DNA of 64,000 nt from Rhodococcus spelaei (lineage in GTDB: Bacteria > Actinomycetota > Actinomycetes > Mycobacteriales > Mycobacteriaceae): positions 445,529 to 509,528 of the forward strand of contig NZ_VIGH01000004.1 in the NCBI RefSeq assembly GCF_006704125.1. Reading direction: 5' to 3'. The number at the start of each line of letters is the position of its first letter. Within the stretch, counting starts at the first letter, position 1. A program made the position numbers and the translations under genes. Shown in pieces: positions 7,207-60,858 of the stretch. The notes beneath the pieces are model-generated. The model was given only the letters and a program-made list of their open reading frames with translations, did not search any database and was not told the origin of the DNA.

Positions 7207-8610
7207 ATGATGGGTGCTCCGTCCGCTGCCACCACAGCGGAATCCAACCTGAAGCGCTCGATCACCCTGCCGCAGGCGCTGGGCATCACGTTCCACCAGA
7301 TCGTCGGTGCCGGGATCCTTGCCATCCTCGGCTCCGCCATCTCGCTCACCGGCGGGGGCGTACCGCTGGCCATCGTGATCACCGCGGTGGCGCTGCCCCT
7401 GGCGAGCATGCCCTACGCCGCCATGGCGTCCGCGCTGCCCACCGCAGGCGGCATGTACCGCTACGCCGCGCGGGTCGTCCACCCCGCCCTCGGCTTCCTG
7501 AACCTGAGCTTCGTCGTGCTCGGCCAGATCACGGTCGGCGTCTTCGGTCTCACCGCGGGCATCTACCTGGAGAGCCTCAACTCGTGGTTCAACCCACGGT
7601 GGGTCGCGGTCACCTTGATCCTGGTGTTCTTCGTCGTCAACCTGCTCGGGGCCTCATTCTCCGCCCGGGTCGGGATCGCACTCGCGGGCGTCATGCTCGC
7701 CGCCTACGCGGTCTTCGTGGTCGCGGGCTTCCTCGACATCGACTGGGCCGACTATCCCGCCGTCCTGCCCGACGGCATCGGCGGCCTGCTCCAGACGTCC
7801 GCGCTGCTGACCTTCGTGCTCGGCGGAGGCACGTTCATCGCCGAACTCGGCGGCGAGATGAAGAACCCCGGGCGGGCCATCCCGATCTCGATCGTCGGCG
7901 GCACCCTCTTCGCCGGGGTCATCTACATCCTGCTCGCCATTCCGGCAGTCGGTGTGCTGCCGATTCCCGAGGTCGCAGGCAAGCCGCTGTCCGTGGTGGC
8001 GAGCGAGGTGCTTCCGCACCCGATGTTCGTCTTCTTCGTCATCGGTGGCAGCCTCGTCGCCGCGGTCGGCAGTATGAACGCGTCCATGACCTGGGGTACC
8101 AAGGGGCTGCTGATCGCGATCGGGGACGGCTGGTTCCCGGCCGGGTTCGGGGCCGTGAACAAGCGCTTCGGCACACCGCACTACCTGCTCGTAGCGGTGA
8201 CGCTGGTCGGGCTCGCACCCGTCGTGCTCGGATACGGCATCGAGGACATCGCCAAAGGGGTGTCGGCTTTCCTTGCGCTGGCGATCATCATCCTGGTCGG
8301 CGCATCCCTGCGACTGCGACGCCGGCGTCCGGACCTGTTCGAGGCGGCGCCCTTCCGGCTGCCGTGGGCGGTGCATGTCGGGCTGTCGATCTTCTCGGTA
8401 CCGGTACTCGGCATCACCACGTACCTGTTGCTCACCCACCTGTCCCCGGTTGCCGCGATCGGCCTGCTCGTGTGGCTCGCGGCCTGCGGGATCTGGTTCT
8501 GCGTGCGCTACCCGCGAATTCGGCCGATGCTGATGGAACGCTCGCGTGTGCTCCTGACGCCGCCGGGCGTGCCTGCCATCGGCGATGTCGCCGTTGCCGT
8601 GGCGAACTGA
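7207..8610 (+). CDS. APC-superfamily amino acid permease
   Basis: Polytopic inner-membrane transporter of 467 residues with about 12 hydrophobic segments. The N-terminal GITFHQIVGAGILAILG is the first APC helix with its unwound glycine motif. GGGTFIAELGGEMKNPGRAIP is the conserved segment after helix 6. ATG at 7207 (or 7210) follows AAGGAG. It is the first gene of the rightward arm of the regulated locus, so uptake of the amino acid or amine handled by the neighbouring enzymes is the likely role. Substrate unknown. Confidence 0.87.
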   Translation: MMGAPSAATTAESNLKRSITLPQALGITFHQIVGAGILAILGSAISLTGGGVPLAIVITAVALPLASMPYAAMASALPTAGGMYRYAARVVHPALGFLNLSFVVLGQITVGVFGLTAGIYLESLNSWFNPRWVAVTLILVFFVVNLLGASFSARVGIALAGVMLAAYAVFVVAGFLDIDWADYPAVLPDGIGGLLQTSALLTFVLGGGTFIAELGGEMKNPGRAIPISIVGGTLFAGVIYILLAIPAVGVLPIPEVAGKPLSVVASEVLPHPMFVFFVIGGSLVAAVGSMNASMTWGTKGLLIAIGDGWFPAGFGAVNKRFGTPHYLLVAVTLVGLAPVVLGYGIEDIAKGVSAFLALAIIILVGASLRLRRRRPDLFEAAPFRLPWAVHVGLSIFSVPVLGITTYLLLTHLSPVAAIGLLVWLAACGIWFCVRYPRIRPMLMERSRVLLTPPGVPAIGDVAVAVAN

Positions 8611-8671
8611 TCCCTCGAATCCCTTGACACCAACATTTTTCGGTAACAACAACCCATGAAGGAGTATCGCC

Positions 8672-8962
8672 ATGTGGATCGTCCGGATGCGATTCGAGAC
8701 CGCCCTCGACGAGGCCGAACAGGAGAAGCTGTCCCGCGCGGGGCTGCCGAAGTTCCGTGCCCTCGAAGGGCTACTGCAGAAGTACTACGTGCGCAACCGT
8801 GACGCGGGTGTGGTCGGCGGCGTCTACCTGTTCGAATCGAAAGAGGCCGCCCAGGCGTACATCGACGGCCCGATCGTCGCCAGCGTCGGCGAGCGGTTCC
8901 GGGTGGTCGGCGACGTCGAGATCGAACTCCTCGAAGTGGAAATGACCCTCGACGAGGCCTGA
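8672..8962 (+). CDS. YdhR-like / antibiotic biosynthesis monooxygenase-fold small protein
   Basis: Protein of 96 residues with the alternating strand pattern of the dimeric alpha/beta barrel fold: MWIVRMRFET at the start, FRALEGLLQKYYVRN, GGVYLFESKEAAQAYIDGP, and a final strand before ELLEVEM. It resembles YdhR-type putative monooxygenases. AAGGAG precedes the ATG. It lies between permease and CoA ligase on the same strand. An enzymatic role (oxygenation or isomerisation of a small substrate) is inference; no cofactor motif is visible. Confidence 0.7.
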   Translation: MWIVRMRFETALDEAEQEKLSRAGLPKFRALEGLLQKYYVRNRDAGVVGGVYLFESKEAAQAYIDGPIVASVGERFRVVGDVEIELLEVEMTLDEA

Positions 8963-8974
8963 CGGCCGGGCGGC

Positions 8975-9003
8975 GACGGCGCGGGCAACGGGCCCGCGCC
9001 GTC
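8975..9003. terminator. GC-rich hairpin after the YdhR-like gene
   Basis: The arms GACGGCGCGGGC (8975-8986) and GCCCGCGCCGTC (8992-9003) are perfectly complementary around a 5-base loop. The hairpin separates the small gene from the CoA ligase and may attenuate or terminate transcription. No T-run follows. Confidence 0.5.
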
Positions 9004-9043
9004 ACCGCCGTTCACCGATCCTGCACGGAAGAAGGACCCGACG

Positions 9044-10585
9044 ATGTCTCTCAATCTGGCGCTCATCCTGCGTGAGTCCGTCCGTGCCGACCCGGATGCC
9101 GCGCTGCTGCATTTCGGCGGCCGGACCTGGACCCGCCGCGAGGTCGACGCGGTCTCGGATCGCGTCGCGGCCGGACTGCTCGCCGGCGGCCTGGGCAGCG
9201 GCGACCGTGTCGCCGTGCAACTGCCGAACATTCCCGAGTTCGTGTTCGCGTACTTCGGCATACTCAAGGCCGGGCTGGTGATGGTTCCGATGAACCCGTT
9301 GCTGCGGCCGCCGGAGATCGCCCACCAACTTGCCCGCAGCGATGCTCGGGTGATGATCACCGAGCGTGGACTGCTCGAGCAGGCCCTCGCCGGCGCAAGC
9401 GATCTGCCGGACCTGGTGCTGGTGGTGGTCGGCGACGCCGAGGTCGTGACCGAGCGCCCCGTTCTCGGCTTCGAGGACCTGCACGTCGACGGCGCCGAAC
9501 CGATGCTGGAACCCACCGACGCCGAGGCCACGGCCGTCGTCATCTTCACCAGTGGTACCACCGGCAGGCCGAAGGGCGCCGAGCTCACCCACGTGCAGCT
9601 GTACATGAACTGCACCCACGCCGGCCGACTCGGCGGCCTTGGCGTCGACGACGTCGTTGTCGGGGTGCTGCCGCTGTTCCACGTCTTCGGTCTCTCGAGC
9701 GTCCTCGACGCGGCGGTCCGGTGGGGGTCGGCGCTGGTGCTGGTACCGCGCTTCGACGCGGACGCGGTCCTCGACGCGATCGAACGTCACCGCGCCACCG
9801 TCCTGCCGGGAGTCCCGACGGTCTTCGTCTCGTTGCTGGCCGCGAACATCGCCGGGCGGGACGTGTCCTCCCTGCGGCTCGGCCTCTCCGGTGGTGCGGC
9901 GCTGTCACCCACCCATCTGAACGCCTTCGAGGCAGCCGTCCCGTCCGCGACCATCCTGGAGGGCTACGGCCTGACGGAATGCGCGAGTGTTGCGACCTTC
10001 AACACCGGACGCGGTGCCCGCAAGATCGGTTCGATCGGAACCCCGTTGTGGGGCACCGAAGTCCGTCTAGTCGACAGCGCCGGTGAGGTGCTGCGGGCGA
10101 CCGGGCCCGATCACGTCGGTGAACTCGAGATTCGGGGCCATCACGTGATGAAGGGCTACATCGGCCAACCCGAGGCAACGGCCGCGGTCCTGCGTGCCGG
10201 CTGGCTTGCCACCGGTGATCTCGGGTACGTCGACGGCGACGGCTACTACTTCATCGTCGACCGCAAGAAGGACGTGATCCTGCGGGGCGGCTACAACGTC
10301 TATCCGCGCGAAGTGGAAGAAGCACTGCTGCAACATCCCTCGGTGATGGAGGCCGCGGTGGTCGGACGCGCCGACGATCGGCTCGGTGAGGAGGTCGTCG
10401 CCTTCGTCGTCACCGAGCCCGGCCTTCGACTGGACCCGGACGAACTGATCGCGTTCGCCAGGGAGCGGGTCGCGGCCTACAAGTACCCACGGGCGGTCAC
10501 CGTCCTCGACGCCCTTCCGCAGGGGGCGACCGGCAAGGTCCTCAAGCGGGTCCTGGCCGGCGCGCCCGACCCCGTATCCCATTGA
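9044..10585 (+). CDS. AMP-forming acyl-CoA synthetase (fatty-acid/aromatic-acid CoA ligase type)
   Basis: ANL-superfamily ligase of 513 residues activating a carboxylic acid through an acyl-adenylate. The phosphate loop TSGTTGRPKG is at residues 169-178, followed by the A5-type motif EGYGLTE. The hinge motif is GDLGYVDGDGYYFIVDRKKD, with GGYNVYPREVEEAL near residue 415. The C-terminal catalytic lysine lies in PQGATGKVLKRVL. ATG at 9044 follows GAAGAAGGA. It probably converts the deaminated product of the locus into a CoA thioester, but the substrate cannot be read from the sequence. Confidence 0.88.
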   Translation: MSLNLALILRESVRADPDAALLHFGGRTWTRREVDAVSDRVAAGLLAGGLGSGDRVAVQLPNIPEFVFAYFGILKAGLVMVPMNPLLRPPEIAHQLARSDARVMITERGLLEQALAGASDLPDLVLVVVGDAEVVTERPVLGFEDLHVDGAEPMLEPTDAEATAVVIFTSGTTGRPKGAELTHVQLYMNCTHAGRLGGLGVDDVVVGVLPLFHVFGLSSVLDAAVRWGSALVLVPRFDADAVLDAIERHRATVLPGVPTVFVSLLAANIAGRDVSSLRLGLSGGAALSPTHLNAFEAAVPSATILEGYGLTECASVATFNTGRGARKIGSIGTPLWGTEVRLVDSAGEVLRATGPDHVGELEIRGHHVMKGYIGQPEATAAVLRAGWLATGDLGYVDGDGYYFIVDRKKDVILRGGYNVYPREVEEALLQHPSVMEAAVVGRADDRLGEEVVAFVVTEPGLRLDPDELIAFARERVAAYKYPRAVTVLDALPQGATGKVLKRVLAGAPDPVSH

Positions 10586-10620
10586 TCGGCAACACTATCC
10601 ACCCGAAAGGCATTCGCACT

Positions 10621-11400
10621 GTGAACACCACGTCGCACCGCACCCTCGAAGGCAAGACGGCCGTCGTCACCGGCGGTGGCCGCGGCATCGGAAGGATGAT
10701 CACAGAGGGGCTCCTCCGCGAGGGAGCCTCGGTGATCATCAGCAGCCGCAAGCAGGACGATCTCGATGCGGCGGTCGCGGAACTGTCCCCGCTCGGGGAG
10801 ATCTCCTCCTTCGCGGCCGACCTAGGCGCCACCGGCGGAGTCGAGGCGTTGGCCGCCCACGTCGCGGAGCAGGTCGATGCCCTGCACGTCCTGGTCAACA
10901 ATGCGGGAGCGAACTGGGGTGCACCGGTCGAGGACTTCCCGGCGTCGGCATGGGACAAGGTGCTCTCGGTCAACGTCAAGGCGATGTTCGGGTTGACCCA
11001 GGCGCTGCTGCCGCAACTGCGGGCGGCGTCCACCGACGACGACCCCGCCCGCGTCGTCAACATCGGGAGTATCGACGGACTCCGGGCGCCGCAGCCCGGC
11101 ATCAACAACTTCTCCTACAGCGCCAGCAAGGCCGCGGTGCACATGCTCACCCAGCAGCTGGCGACCACCCTCGCGCCGGACATCCTGGTCAACGCGATCG
11201 CGCCGGGACTGTTCGAGTCGAAGATGACCACCGGTCTGCTCGCGTTCGGTGAGGATGCGGTGGCCGCGCAGATTCCCCTGCGCCGGATCGGCCGCCCCGC
11301 TGACATGGCGGGCATCGCGGCCTTCCTCGCCGGACCGTCGAGCACCTATATCACCGGAGCGGTCATCCCCGTCGACGGTGGCGTGGTCGCCTCCCGCTGA
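10621..11400 (+). CDS. Short-chain dehydrogenase/reductase
   Basis: SDR of 259 residues. The NAD(P)-binding motif TGGGRGIG is at residues 17-24, LVNNAGAN follows mid-protein, the catalytic serine lies in NIGSIDG, and YSASK places Tyr166 and Lys170. GTG at 10621, preceded by AAAGG, is preferred over an in-frame TTG at 10582 inside the previous gene's end. It closes the rightward arm of the locus and fits a hydroxyacyl or alcohol oxidation step downstream of the CoA ligase. Confidence 0.85.
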   Translation: MNTTSHRTLEGKTAVVTGGGRGIGRMITEGLLREGASVIISSRKQDDLDAAVAELSPLGEISSFAADLGATGGVEALAAHVAEQVDALHVLVNNAGANWGAPVEDFPASAWDKVLSVNVKAMFGLTQALLPQLRAASTDDDPARVVNIGSIDGLRAPQPGINNFSYSASKAAVHMLTQQLATTLAPDILVNAIAPGLFESKMTTGLLAFGEDAVAAQIPLRRIGRPADMAGIAAFLAGPSSTYITGAVIPVDGGVVASR

Positions 11401-55138: not shown

Positions 55139-56473
55139 GTGGATGCGGTGAAGATCGTTCTCGAGTTGGTCGTGGTGCTCGGCGCCATCGTGATGGGTAC
55201 CCGGTCGAGCGGTGTGGCACTCGGTCTGTGGGGCGGCGCGGGCGTCGCGGTGCTGGTGTTCGTCTTCCGGGAGCCGGTCGGCAGCCCGCCGGTGGATGCG
55301 CTACTGATCGTCCTGTCGGTCGTACTGGCGTCGTCGATGATGCAGGCTGCCGGCGGCATCGACTGGATGGTGTCGATCGCGGCGAACCTGATTGCCAAGC
55401 GGCCCAAGCAGATCACGCTGATCGCACCGCTCGTCTCGTTCCTGTTCTCGGTGGGCGCGGGCACCTCGAACATCCTGTACCCGCTGCTGCCGGTGATCTA
55501 CGACGCCTCCTACCGCAACGGCATTCGACCGTCGCGGCCGCTGTCACTGTCGGTGGTCGCGACCGGTGTCGCCCTCGCCTGCAGCCCCGTGTCGGCGGCG
55601 ATGGCGGCGATGGTCACCCTCACCGACGTCGCGCCCTACAACTTCGAGCTGATCGACATCATCAAGATCACGTTGCCCGCTGCCATCATCGGCATCGTGT
55701 TGTCCTCGATCGTCGTCAATCGGCTCGGCAAGGACATCGACGAGGATCCGGAGATCCAGGCGCGCATAGCTTCCGGGGAACTCGCAGCTCCCGCGGGCGG
55801 GATGAGCAAGGTCGAGTTGAAGGCGTCGACGCAGGGACGCAACGCAGCCCTGATCTTCCTCGCGGGTGTCCTCGCGATCGTGGTATTCGGACTGTTCAAG
55901 GGAATTCGCCCGGACGCGTCCGACGGATCGCCCATGGGGATGACCCCGATCATCGAGATGATCATGTTCGTGGTCGGCACCGCGATCCTGATGGTGAGCA
56001 AGCCGAAGGTCGCCGACATCCCGACCATGTCGGTGTTCAAGGCCGGTATGGTCTCGGCCATCGCGCTTTTCGGCCTGGCCTGGCTCACCGACACCTTCAT
56101 CAGTGCGCACCTGGAACTGATCACCAATTCGGTCGGTGACTGGGTCGACGCGGCGCCGTGGATCTTCGCGCTGGGCGTGTTCCTGGTCTGCGTGCTGACC
56201 ACCAGTCAGTCGACCGCGACCCGGACGATCGTGCCGATCGGCCTGACCGCGGGTCTGGCACCGGGCCTGATCAGCGGTATGTGGGCCGGCGCGTTCGCCG
56301 GCGTCTATCTGTTGCCCACCAACGGATCTCAGATCGCTGCGGCGAACTTCGACGAGTCGGGCAGCACCAAGCTCGGCACCAAACTGGTGGACCACTCGTT
56401 CTTCGTCCCCACCCTCGTACTCGCGGTGACGACCATCGCGGCCGGTTCGGTGCTGGGCGTGATCCTGGGCTGA
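55139..56473 (+). CDS. dcuA: Dcu-type C4-dicarboxylate transporter
   Basis: Polytopic membrane protein of 444 residues with about 11-12 helices. SVGAGTSNILYPLLPVIYD and ACSPVSAAMAAM are conserved in the anaerobic C4-dicarboxylate (fumarate/succinate, aspartate) antiporter family; LTTSQSTATRTIVPIG and YLLPTNGSQIAAANFD are the C-terminal half equivalents. GTG at 55139 is used. DcuA versus DcuB cannot be told with certainty, and the substrate direction in an aerobic host is unknown. Confidence 0.83.
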   Translation: MDAVKIVLELVVVLGAIVMGTRSSGVALGLWGGAGVAVLVFVFREPVGSPPVDALLIVLSVVLASSMMQAAGGIDWMVSIAANLIAKRPKQITLIAPLVSFLFSVGAGTSNILYPLLPVIYDASYRNGIRPSRPLSLSVVATGVALACSPVSAAMAAMVTLTDVAPYNFELIDIIKITLPAAIIGIVLSSIVVNRLGKDIDEDPEIQARIASGELAAPAGGMSKVELKASTQGRNAALIFLAGVLAIVVFGLFKGIRPDASDGSPMGMTPIIEMIMFVVGTAILMVSKPKVADIPTMSVFKAGMVSAIALFGLAWLTDTFISAHLELITNSVGDWVDAAPWIFALGVFLVCVLTTSQSTATRTIVPIGLTAGLAPGLISGMWAGAFAGVYLLPTNGSQIAAANFDESGSTKLGTKLVDHSFFVPTLVLAVTTIAAGSVLGVILG

Positions 56474-56480
56474 GGGAGCG

Positions 56481-57593
56481 TCAGGCTCGGGTGCGGTACC
56501 GGTCCCAGCTCGCCTTGCAGGCCCGAGCCAGCAGGTCGACACGGTCGATGTCGGGATCGGGCCACCCCACCCCGGGCGCAGTCAGTTCGCGGGTCAGCTC
56601 GGGTCCGAGCAGGAACTCGCGGCGGAACTCGGCCTGCACCGCACCGAGCGCCACGCCCGCCACCGCCGCGCGCGGCGCCAGTTCGCGGAACAGGGCACCG
56701 GCTTCGATGATCTCCTGGCTGCCCAGGTACGGCTGGTTCAGCGCAACCGCTTCGGGGCGTCCCACGTCGAAACCCGTGCGGTGGGCCGCGGCCAGCGCCC
56801 GCAGCGCGTCGGGGGCCATGGTCACCGGGTTGTCCCCGCGCGGGTTGCCCTGGTGGTCGCCCCGGTTCGACAGCGCGACCACATCCGGCAGCCGGTCCGC
56901 GGGGGCGCGCTCGACGTTCACCGCACCGTCCCGGGTGGTCGTGTGATTCATCGTGTCGTGGAACGAGAGCGTGTTGAAGTCCACGGCCGCACCCGACCGG
57001 TCCGCCTCGGCGAAGGCGAGGTCGACCATGCGCCCGATCAGTTCGGTGCGGGTGCGCTGGTACACCTCGAGGCCACGGTCGGCGACCTCGGCGAAGGCCG
57101 CCGCGAGCCGGCGCAATCCGGCCTCGTCGTCCGGCTCGACGAGCAGTGGGTAGAACGAGAACGTCACCGGTCGGATCGCCTCCACCCCGGTCAGGTCCAC
57201 CTTGTTGTACGGCCCCGCTGCCCGGACCCGGGCGAACGCCTCGCGCAGGGTCTCGTACAGGTCGTCGGGCTTGGCCCGGTTGGGGTCACGGACCATCCGT
57301 GGGTGCGGGTTCTCCACGTACACGATGCGCGGGTCGATCTGCGCCCAGCGCCGCACGATCGGGCTGGTCGAGCAGTCGGTGAAGTCGAACTGCAGCCGCT
57401 TGGTGAACTCGGGCGCGAGGAACTGTGCGAGTTCGGCCGGGATCGCGGAGCCCGAGTGCGGGCAACTGACGAGCAGGTCGGCCTCCGCGAGCGCCTCGTC
57501 GAGGCTCCGACGGTCGGGATCGGCGTAGAAGATCAGGTCCTCGGGGGTGAAGACGGTTCCGGCGGGCAGGAGCAGCGGGTCAGCAGGCGCCAT
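56481..57593 (-). CDS. N-formylglutamate amidohydrolase family protein
   Basis: Protein of 370 residues. LLVSCPHSGSAIP carries the metal-binding H-S motif near residue 45; NPHPRMVRDPNR and VDFNTLSFHDTMNH follow, and GDNPVTM and LNQPYLGSQEI lie later, as in FGase-type hydrolases. It would deformylate or deacylate an amino acid derivative. It is tail to tail with the Dcu transporter (8-base gap). Its ATG at 57593 overlaps the start codon of the divergent hydrolase gene. Confidence 0.82.
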   Translation of the reverse strand: MAPADPLLLPAGTVFTPEDLIFYADPDRRSLDEALAEADLLVSCPHSGSAIPAELAQFLAPEFTKRLQFDFTDCSTSPIVRRWAQIDPRIVYVENPHPRMVRDPNRAKPDDLYETLREAFARVRAAGPYNKVDLTGVEAIRPVTFSFYPLLVEPDDEAGLRRLAAAFAEVADRGLEVYQRTRTELIGRMVDLAFAEADRSGAAVDFNTLSFHDTMNHTTTRDGAVNVERAPADRLPDVVALSNRGDHQGNPRGDNPVTMAPDALRALAAAHRTGFDVGRPEAVALNQPYLGSQEIIEAGALFRELAPRAAVAGVALGAVQAEFRREFLLGPELTRELTAPGVGWPDPDIDRVDLLARACKASWDRYRTRA

Positions 57594-58473
57594 GAGCGAA
57601 CCCTATCGGCTGGGGCGTTCGGTGGCGGAGTATGGAGCCGTGGAGACGATTCCGATTCAGGTGCCCGACGGCAGCACGCTCCCGGTCCGGCTCTTCCCCG
57701 GACGCGAGGGGGCGCCGGTGGTGGTGGTCTTTCCCGGTCTCGGGGTACCGGGCGGGTTCTACGATCCGGTCGCGCAGGCGTTGGTCGAGGGCGGGTTCAA
57801 TGCGGCGATCGGTGAGCTACGCGGTCAGGGCGACAGCAGGCCCCGGCCCGGCCCGAACAGTGGATACGGGTACCAGGAGTTGGTGTCGGTGGACTACCCG
57901 GCGACCTTCGAGGTGGTGCGGGAGCGGTTTCCCGACAGCACGCCGTACCTGCTCGGACACAGCATGGGCGGCCAGCTCGGGGTGATGTACGCCGCGCGTG
58001 CTCGGGGACGCCTCGGCGGGCTGATCCTGGTGGCCTCGGGCTCGCCCTTCCACCGCGGGCACGGTCCGGTGCGCGGCGCCGGCCTGCTGCTCGGGTCGGC
58101 GGCGATGTCGGTGACCGCGAACGTGGCGGGATTCTGGCCGGGTGACCGCCTGGACGTCGGTGGGTTCGGCAGGCAGTCCCGGGTGCTGATCTCCGACTGG
58201 TCGAGGTTCGCGCGCACCGGCACGATCGAGCCCGCGGGCGCGGACATCGACTACGAGGAGCGCATCGGCAGGCTGACACTGCCGGTGCTCTCGATATCGG
58301 TCGAGGGCGACGACCTGGCGCCGAAACCGGCCATCGCGAACCTGGTCCGCAAGCTTCCGAAGGCGGACCTGACGACGTGGCACCAGTCGGAACCGTTGGG
58401 CCACAACGGTTGGATCCGCAAGCCCGACAGCACGGTCGAGCGGATCGTGACGTGGTTGCGCGACCGCGAGTGA
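57592..58473 (+). CDS. Alpha/beta hydrolase (serine aminopeptidase S33-like)
   Basis: Protein of 293 residues. VVVVFPGLGVPGGFYD is the oxyanion loop, YLLGHSMGGQLGVMYA has the nucleophile serine (G-H-S-M-G), LSISVEGDDLAPK holds the acid aspartate, and EPLGHNGWI the histidine. ATG 57592 overlaps the divergent start; a GTG at 57640 with an upstream GGAG is an alternative. It ends 9 bases before the kinase gene, so the two are probably co-transcribed. Confidence 0.82.
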   Translation: MSEPYRLGRSVAEYGAVETIPIQVPDGSTLPVRLFPGREGAPVVVVFPGLGVPGGFYDPVAQALVEGGFNAAIGELRGQGDSRPRPGPNSGYGYQELVSVDYPATFEVVRERFPDSTPYLLGHSMGGQLGVMYAARARGRLGGLILVASGSPFHRGHGPVRGAGLLLGSAAMSVTANVAGFWPGDRLDVGGFGRQSRVLISDWSRFARTGTIEPAGADIDYEERIGRLTLPVLSISVEGDDLAPKPAIANLVRKLPKADLTTWHQSEPLGHNGWIRKPDSTVERIVTWLRDRE

Positions 58474-58482
58474 GAGACGGTC

Positions 58483-60858
58483 ATGGACCCCCCAGCACGT
58501 CCCGCGAGTGACGAGACCGTGATCGGCGGCCCCCCGACGGAGCTGGGTCCACCGACGGAGCTGGGTCCACCGACGGAGCTGGGTGTCCGGACGGAACTGG
58601 GGCAGGACACGGGGACGCCGTCCACCACGACCACGGGGCCGAGCGCCGGGTTCGTCGTCGACACCGGTGTCGGGAGGTTGGTAGCGGACTGGGAGGACTC
58701 CGGTGTCCCATCCGATCTGCGGGACTACCTGCCGGACACGGACGCCGTCCGGCGGGCGGCGTTGGTCGAGTTGATCATGGTCGACCTCGCCTACCGCTGG
58801 CTCCGGGTCGGTCGGCCGAAGCGGATCGCCGACTACTGCCTCGAGTTCCCGGAACTGCTGGCCGAGCCGCTGCCACCGGAGCTCGTCTACGAGGAGTACC
58901 GGGTGCGGAGGCTGAGCGGGGCGGAGGTCGACCCGAACGACTACGTGGCGGAGTTCCCGTATCAGGCCGACCGGTTCGACTGGCTGCGCGAACACGATCC
59001 GCGCACCGCGGGCGCCGAGCAGTTGAGCCTGCCGGGCAGCGACGACCTCGCCGCGGGGCACCGGCTCGACGACTTCGACCTCGTGACCGAGCTCGGGCGC
59101 GGGGCGTTCGCCCGCGTATTCCTGGCCCGTCAGCGTTCGATGCAGCGCTGGGTGGCGTTGAAGATCTCCCGCAACGTCGGCACCGAGGCGCAGACCCTCG
59201 CCCAGCTCGACCACCCGTACATCGTGCGGGTCTTCGATCAGCGGGTGCTCGAGGACCGACAGCTGCGAATGCTGTTCATGGAGTACGTGTCCGGCGGCAC
59301 CCTGCTGGACGTGGTGCGCCGGGTTCGCGACGCCCCGCCCGAATCGTGGGGCGGGCAGCTGCTGCTCGACTCCATCGACCGGACCCTCGCACGCAAGGGG
59401 GAGATGCGGCCGGCGGAATCCGGGGTGCGCACCGAGATCGCCGCGCTGTCCTGGCCGGAGACCGTCGCCTGGATAGGGCTGCGGTTGGCCGAGGCGCTCG
59501 AGTACGCGCGCGAGCACGGGGTGCTGCACCGCGACATCAAGCCGGCGAACGTGCTCCTCACTGTCGAGGGTGTCCCCAAGCTCGCCGACTTCAACGTCAG
59601 TTCCAGCGACGTCGTCTCCGTGCCCGGCGCGGCCGGGTCGGTCGCAGGGTCGGTCGCCTACATGTCGCCCGAGCAGTTGGCGGCGGCGTCCGCACCCGCG
59701 TCGGCGGCCGCCGCGCGGATCGACACCCGCAGCGACATCTACTCGCTGGGCGTGATGCTCTGGGAGCTGCTGACCGGTTCGCGGCCCTTCGCCGACGCCA
59801 AGGCCGGTGAGTCGCTTGAGGTGCCGCTCGCGCAGCGTCGCCGCGGCGTGGACGAGGAGATGCTGGCGAGGTTGCCCGCCGACTGCCCGGCGGCGCTGCG
59901 CCGGGTGCTGCTGCGCTCGCTCGAACCCGACCCGGACGACCGGTGGTCGGACGGACGGAAGCTGGCGCGGCAGTTCGCCCTGTGTCTGGATCCGCACGCG
60001 CGTGACCTGGTCGACCCGCGGCCCGGCACGGTGCGGGCGAGGCTGTGGCGGTGGGCGCTGCCGGTGCTGTTGGCGGCGATCGGAATCCCCAACGTGCTGG
60101 CGGCGGGCTACAACTACTACTACAACAAGGAACTGATCATCTCGACACTTTCGGCCGAGGCGCAGCAGCACCTCGAGCAGGTGCACCTGGTGATCGCCGC
60201 GCTGGCGTTCCCGCTCGGGGCCGTGCTGATCGTCGCGTGGTGCAGGCTCGCGCTCACCGTGCCGCGGGGCCTGCGGAAGGGGCAGACCTACGACGGTGCT
60301 GTGCTCGGTCGCGCGCGAGCGGCGACGCTGAACCTCGGGCACCGCACCGTCGTGGTCAGTTTCGCGCTGTGGGTGGTGGCGGGGGTCGCGTACCCGGTCG
60401 CGTTGCAGATCGCGGCGGGCGGCATCCCGCTGCGGGCCTACACCCACCTGCTCGCCTCACTGGCCGTGTGCGGAGCGGTCGCGGTGGCCTACCCGTACTT
60501 CATCCTCACCTATTACTCGGTCCGGTGCCTCTATCCGATCCTGTTGTCGCACGGGGAGATCCGCAGTGGCGACGGACGTGACATCCGTGCCCAACGCAGG
60601 CTCGGCACCCGCTACCTCGCCGTCGCGGCGTCGGTTCCGCTGATCGGGGTCGCGGGTCTGAGCTTCGTCGGCGCCGACCGGGGCGGCGCCGTGAACGTGA
60701 CGGTCCGGGTGCTGTGCCTCGGCGGCATCGCCGCGTTCATCGGTGTGTACCAACTGTTCCGGCGGATCGAGTCCGACCTGCGCGCGCTCTCGCGGGTGGC
60801 GACCCTCGGCGTGCCGGGTGGTGGTCAGCCGCCGAGCACCTCCCAGAGGAACGTGTAG
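58483..60858 (+). CDS. Membrane Ser/Thr protein kinase with DFN motif and N-terminal planctomycete-type domain
   Basis: Protein of 791 residues. Residues 1-40 include the six-residue repeat PPTELG (three times). Residues about 75-180 form a helical domain (ALVELIMVDLAYRWLRVGRP, YCLEFPELL). The kinase domain (about 200-505) has ELGRGAFARVFLARQ, Lys227 in VALKIS, HRDIKPANVLL (Asp351), DFN at 369-371 instead of DFG, SPEQL, and DIYSLGVMLWELLTGSRPF. The C-terminal 270 residues carry about six membrane helices. Metal- and ATP-binding residues are kept, so activity is likely. The layout resembles kinases common in Planctomycetes. Confidence 0.85.
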   Translation: MDPPARPASDETVIGGPPTELGPPTELGPPTELGVRTELGQDTGTPSTTTTGPSAGFVVDTGVGRLVADWEDSGVPSDLRDYLPDTDAVRRAALVELIMVDLAYRWLRVGRPKRIADYCLEFPELLAEPLPPELVYEEYRVRRLSGAEVDPNDYVAEFPYQADRFDWLREHDPRTAGAEQLSLPGSDDLAAGHRLDDFDLVTELGRGAFARVFLARQRSMQRWVALKISRNVGTEAQTLAQLDHPYIVRVFDQRVLEDRQLRMLFMEYVSGGTLLDVVRRVRDAPPESWGGQLLLDSIDRTLARKGEMRPAESGVRTEIAALSWPETVAWIGLRLAEALEYAREHGVLHRDIKPANVLLTVEGVPKLADFNVSSSDVVSVPGAAGSVAGSVAYMSPEQLAAASAPASAAAARIDTRSDIYSLGVMLWELLTGSRPFADAKAGESLEVPLAQRRRGVDEEMLARLPADCPAALRRVLLRSLEPDPDDRWSDGRKLARQFALCLDPHARDLVDPRPGTVRARLWRWALPVLLAAIGIPNVLAAGYNYYYNKELIISTLSAEAQQHLEQVHLVIAALAFPLGAVLIVAWCRLALTVPRGLRKGQTYDGAVLGRARAATLNLGHRTVVVSFALWVVAGVAYPVALQIAAGGIPLRAYTHLLASLAVCGAVAVAYPYFILTYYSVRCLYPILLSHGEIRSGDGRDIRAQRRLGTRYLAVAASVPLIGVAGLSFVGADRGGAVNVTVRVLCLGGIAAFIGVYQLFRRIESDLRALSRVATLGVPGGGQPPSTSQRNV
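58534..58603 (+). repeat. 18-base in-frame tandem repeat in the kinase gene
   Basis: Units CCGACGGAGCTGGGTCCA at 58534 and 58552 are followed by a third differing at its 3' end and a diverged fourth (CGGACGGAACTGGGG). They encode the repeated PPTELG segment near the kinase N-terminus. Confidence 0.8.

Follow-up and report, generated by a model that had tools for sequence, protein, structure and literature searches.

Actinobacterial Ser/Thr kinases of the PknB/PknA type share the Hanks kinase fold with the protein described here, but they carry DFG and one membrane helix, in PknB also PASTA domains, and occupy a separate region of the kinase tree. Bacterial pseudokinase families (ActPs1-3 and others; PMC12599244) likewise comprise membrane-linked actinobacterial proteins with a kinase fold. 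A natural DFN motif has been described in the Leishmania MAP kinase MPK10, in which both spines are aligned and the conformation is apparently active without loop phosphorylation (PMC4169501); MPK10 is eukaryotic and related to our protein by the kinase fold alone, and likely offers an analogy of mechanism. The planctomycete six-helix DFN kinases (L166-L180 and L182) have, in the same order as our protein, an N-domain (in most), a DFN kinase and a six-helix domain; they differ in lacking a hydrolase neighbour and in having a YFGGS loop, which became VAGS in the lineage studied here. Three further planctomycete kinases (Singulisphaera sp. GP187 G486:C5:6164927, Paludisphaera borealis WP_076351742.1 and Isosphaera pallida WP_013555142.1) share the N-domain, the kinase subdomains with an insert before alphaE and an LDFN or LDFH motif, but have at most one membrane helix, and long C-terminal regions replace the six-helix module. 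A literature search on DFN and planctomycete Ser/Thr kinases, whose coverage stopped short of the 2025 atlas of bacterial Ser/Thr kinases (PMC12233097), found no paper.

The features of the locus are collected in Table 1, with positions counted in the window, that is, the whole 64,000-nucleotide stretch of DNA that was analysed. The kinase frame is open and has a stop codon at its end, and the initial annotation had described it correctly: LAYRWLRVGRP spans residues 102-112, EFPELL and EFPYQ lie inside the N-domain, QTLAQLDHPYIVRVFDQR spans residues 237-254 of the kinase, and HRDIKPAN (349-356) and DFN were confirmed. The frame is a real gene and not a chance one, since a congener has a protein of 79% identity, full-length homologues exist in another phylum, and a survey with the window protein (P0001, E<=1e-60) found homologues in 33 of 101 genomes of its own family, to which Nocardia, Rhodococcus and Mycobacterium belong, the copy number reaching five. 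The sole Pfam domain seen was Pkinase (PF00069; residues 200-489, E 1.9e-35). In a model of the whole protein (pLDDT 70.9) the N-domain is helical, the kinase resembles PknB, and there is a bundle of helices. Our preferred reading, which we regard as reasonably probable, is that the protein is a catalytically active kinase of the Hanks Ser/Thr type, from a three-part family born in planctomycetes and transferred intact, with an input from the bilayer or a membrane partner and a bias set by DFN.

Table 1. Features of the kinase locus (positions in the window; residues numbered as in the kinase ORF)
Feature	Position	Strand	Remarks
Alpha/beta hydrolase (S33/Hydrolase_4 type)	57593..58473	+	57547 is the start of the longest ORF
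Whole gene: N-domain, DFN Ser/Thr kinase, six-helix membrane module	58483..60858	+	791 aa
Thr-rich disordered N-terminus with TELG repeats	58483..58656	+	[DE]xT[VI] at residues 10-14 kept among close relatives
N-domain, helical, two Y..EFP repeats	58678..58986	+	residues 66-168, ~105 aa; also in planctomycete kinases
Ser/Thr kinase domain, short beta3-alphaC link, insert before alphaE	59074..59991	+	residues 198-503
K227, ATP-binding beta3 lysine	59161..59163	+	in 56/58 members
HRD motif	59527..59535	+	residues 349-351; catalytic D351 in 56/58
DFN replacing DFG	59587..59595	+	residues 369-371; N in 55/58
Activation loop up to SPE motif	59587..59673	+	residues 369-397
Six-helix membrane module	60031..60804	+	residues 517-774

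The kinase domain has the marks of the Hanks type, namely the kinase fold, the VAIK lysine, the alphaC glutamate, HRD and the metal-binding aspartate. It departs from the type at the DFG glycine, a variable position that does not decide Hanks membership. K227, E235, HRD, N356, D369, E397 and R487 were retained in 56 to 58 of 58 members from two phyla, and the asparagine of DFN was missing from three: two tandem Nocardia paralogues and L182, a divergent planctomycete row with DFS. DFN in place of DFG suggests that these kinases have their own mode of switching on. By analogy with Leishmania MPK10, Asn371 probably biases the kinase towards an assembled, active-like conformation without loop phosphorylation, and control would then lie with the helices and the N-domain rather than with phosphorylation of the activation loop. 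The conformation of DFN could not be read from the model, in which pLDDT fell below 50 at residues 370-388 and 233-245. A rather unlikely alternative is that the kinase is active, DFN is a mere lineage marker and regulation follows the ordinary PknB pattern, in which the kinase dimerises and its activation loop is phosphorylated in trans. Consistent with this, the arginine of HRD is retained, the near-invariant S373 and S390 (97% of the 58 members) could be phosphorylated, and Ser/Thr are common at 375, 381 and 382. Against it, no Ser/Thr within residues 374-389 was conserved in 90% of the 58 members (the best, 375, reached 81%), the loop was rewritten in the window lineage, and the retention of DFN across two phyla argues for a role.

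The N-terminus offers another candidate for phosphorylation. Thr motifs at window positions 58510-58600 (DETVIGGP, then the TELG repeats) begin with the [DE]xT[VI] element, which together with the following GP was retained in most close relatives, unlike the remaining N-terminus. It is possibly an autophosphorylation or docking site, and autophosphorylated Thr sites of the N-terminus or the linker may dock partners. In the linker the T(x)[ILVM] motif occurred 73 times against 56 in shuffles, too small an excess for a claim.

About six membrane helices had been proposed for the C-terminal part, and hydropathy analysis gave exactly six (524-542, 569-587, 623-641, 656-674, 712-730 and 737-755). 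Arg/Lys-rich loops lay on the kinase side, in the alternating pattern expected of a cytoplasmic kinase; the predicted location of the kinase and of both termini is the cytoplasm. The external loops are short, at about 27, 15 and 7 residues, and because they are so small the input likely comes from the bilayer (lipid, hydrophobic ligand or membrane stress) or from a membrane partner. Our best guess is that the bundle reads an envelope, lipid or membrane-partner signal. Modelled alone, the module reached a pLDDT of 80.7 and a pTM of 0.79; only chance matches to it were obtained from Pfam, and a fold search against the PDB gave nothing below E 0.34. Searched with a profile of the module, 18 of 19 genomes gave 32 strong matches, every one at kinases of the six-helix DFN family, and a 576-aa ORF gave a single marginal one (E 9e-4).

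We then considered the gene neighbourhood. The hydrolase ORF ends 9 nt 5' of the kinase on the same strand, a GAGAG stretch precedes the kinase ATG, and each of the genus's six loci has the two genes side by side, 9-12 nt apart in four of them. The co-transcription proposed earlier is probable; as a conserved pair the two genes occur only within the window's genus, since the hydrolase adjoined the kinase in none of the other genera or planctomycetes examined. A scan for promoters and terminators found none. That the kinase works with, or acts on, this lipase-like hydrolase as a dedicated partner is improbable: the short gap, the GAGAG stretch, the gene order shared by the six loci and the S33/Hydrolase_4 kind of the enzyme would suit such a pairing, but its absence elsewhere means that it cannot be the general mechanism, and synteny ruled out the hydrolase as a general partner. 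The planctomycete neighbours varied by lineage, with an enolase gene in one group and synteny common to three genomes. As no universal partner was found at the loci examined, the kinase is probably a stand-alone receptor. Several neighbours were recorded in passing. In the planctomycete sister lineage (L205, L206 and L214) the immediate neighbour of the DFN membrane kinase is a gene of the Omp85/BamA type whose product has POTRA domains; on the Paludisphaera borealis plasmid PALBO1 (L053:5256-8460) a gene for a sigma-70 family factor lies directly upstream of an N-domain DFH kinase; and near the kinase in the window (55139-56473) is a gene for a DcuA/DcuB anaerobic C4-dicarboxylate transporter, above NCBIfam cut-offs and common to congeners.

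Two known kinase classes were tried and rejected. A PknB/Stk1 PASTA kinase (NF033483) was set aside on 154 bits against a cut-off of 450, the lack of a PASTA match, the six helices and the separate place in the tree. The anti-phage defence kinases MAD6 and PD-T4-6 matched essentially the kinase domain only (NCBIfam MAD6, 138 bits against 460), and the genes adjoining the kinase are metabolic or regulatory, with no defence context. The NCBIfam and PADLOC matches thus reflected generic kinase-domain similarity, those of NCBIfam lying far under their cut-offs.

To place the family, a kinase-domain tree was built from 88 rows, including six of the seven further Pfam kinase loci of the window's genome, all DFG. 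The six-helix family and the planctomycete LDFN/LDFH kinases formed one side of a 100/100 branch with a length of 0.80, and all DFG kinases, the genome's own included, lay on the opposite side. The window kinase therefore sits in the planctomycete DFN clade and not among actinobacterial DFG kinases. It belongs to the six-helix DFN family by homology over the N-domain, the kinase and the membrane module, and the DFN group is monophyletic to the exclusion of DFG kinases. The 31 actinobacterial rows formed a single clade (100/96) nested in the planctomycete rows; on full length this clade had 100/100 support, and its sisters, at 97/94, were two planctomycete proteins.

Among 396 Actinobacteria sampled phylum-wide, members of the kinase family occurred only in genomes of the window's own family; those identified by name are, among others, from Nocardia farcinica, N. 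aobensis, N. amikacinitolerans, Rhodococcus sp. H36-A4 and Mycolicibacterium tusciae. When 246 Planctomycetota genomes were swept, 19 gave matches at E<=1e-40 and 16 carried the membrane domain; in the twelve nearest homologues identity to the window protein was 38-42% across 716-799 aa. With the same query that matched in this sweep, no match was found in 445 genomes (145 Verrucomicrobiota, 151 Chloroflexota and 149 Acidobacteriota). Besides the window kinase and one paralogue, which is 61% identical and lacks the N-domain, the window's genome has seven Pfam kinase loci, and its ordinary kinases matched the window protein with at most 67.5 bits. In an alignment against genome contigs that started from Paludisphaera, the best among the matches listed were actinobacterial kinases of the family, before Singulisphaera. 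Two observations concern individual loci: three to four tandem kinase copies lie within about 20 kb in one actinobacterial genus (L191 in G408, L190 in G449, and G432:C23:105870-124133), and one copy (L010 and L012; G050:C88:115627-118004) is split over two frames, covering residues 24-405 and 443-778, by a frameshift or a sequencing error.

The N-domain, for which Pfam gave chance matches only, pointed to the same source. A consensus of it had served as a lead to the Isosphaera and Paludisphaera plasmid kinases, the first planctomycete link. An HMM built from actinobacterial rows only then matched planctomycete kinases, DFN and DFG alike, with E down to 1e-34, bearing out the earlier impression that the domain recalls kinases of that phylum. 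It occurred in 11 of 119 Planctomycetota genomes (ten copies in one Singulisphaera genome) and in 3 of 296 Actinobacteria, all three from the window's family; this spread places the home of the domain in Planctomycetota. A similar suggestion about DFN held in part: one DFN clade does exist there, but the N-domain planctomycete kinases with a readable motif are mostly DFG, all except the six-helix family and its LDFN/LDFH neighbours.

Collectively, the full-length planctomycete homologues, the tree and the N-domain distribution upheld the idea of a transferred, little-studied membrane kinase family. We conclude firmly that the gene was transferred between Planctomycetota and Actinobacteria. Contamination of the planctomycete genomes by actinobacterial DNA was ruled out by their GC of 45-67%, the synteny common to three genomes and the BamA-type neighbour. 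The kinase gene has a GC of 71% and a GC3 of 91% in a window of 70% GC, and this full adaptation of its composition indicates that the transfer is old; no near match to the operon that would indicate a plasmid route was found. A direction from planctomycete to actinobacterium is likely, resting partly on one divergent row, L182. When the planctomycete six-helix rows were constrained together, the constraint was rejected on full length (p-AU 0.0018); it was not rejected on full length without L182, the most divergent row (p 0.29), nor on the kinase domain alone (p 0.085). These last two results leave some room for the reverse transfer, or for an ancient family lost in nearly all other lineages. 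We hold both to be quite improbable, as the closest kinases that are not members come from planctomycetes and share both DFN and the N-domain, that domain is widespread in Planctomycetota and confined to one family in Actinobacteria, and ancient loss would require absence across all other Actinobacteria and the three other phyla sampled. On the preferred reading, the three-part family would have arisen among Planctomycetota, and the intact gene was then most likely acquired horizontally by an ancestor of the window's actinobacterial family, with duplication and patchy loss thereafter.

Duplication has also yielded tandem paralogues directly 3' of a DFN kinase of the same family in Nocardia farcinica (L054; downstream frame, about 8600-10892) and N. 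amikacinitolerans (L060; about 7229-9529). Both keep the N-domain and the membrane module, with the beta3 Lys changed to R, the HRD Asp to A and the DFN Asn to A. In this loss of catalytic residues they resemble pseudokinases of the ActPs1-3 type (PMC12599244), whereas the window protein keeps all of them. Judged by its sequence, each is a pseudokinase partner of a presumably active DFN kinase. The loss of the DFN asparagine together with the catalytic residues indicates that Asn is held where catalysis is held. That DFN itself disables the kinase, making the window protein a pseudokinase scaffold, is very improbable: K, D and N are indeed gone from two of the family's paralogues, but the catalytic set is kept across two phyla, K227, D351 and the invariant D369, which is the metal-binding residue, are all present in the window protein, and N371 was lost exactly where catalysis was lost.

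Multi-domain receptor kinases are usually regarded as bound to the wiring of their own lineage. Here an intact receptor kinase crossed phyla and types of cell envelope and then reached up to five copies per genome. We tentatively propose a class of receptor kinases in which the DFN asparagine would hold the kinase ready without loop phosphorylation, with a six-helix switch that has no solved relative; the class may have crossed from diderm Planctomycetota to mycolic-acid bacteria and diversified there, catalytically dead tandem partners included. The family is a natural two-phylum test of the purpose of the DFG glycine, and through it a group to which Nocardia, Rhodococcus and Mycolicibacterium belong gains a presumed membrane sensing domain with no relative in Pfam or the PDB.
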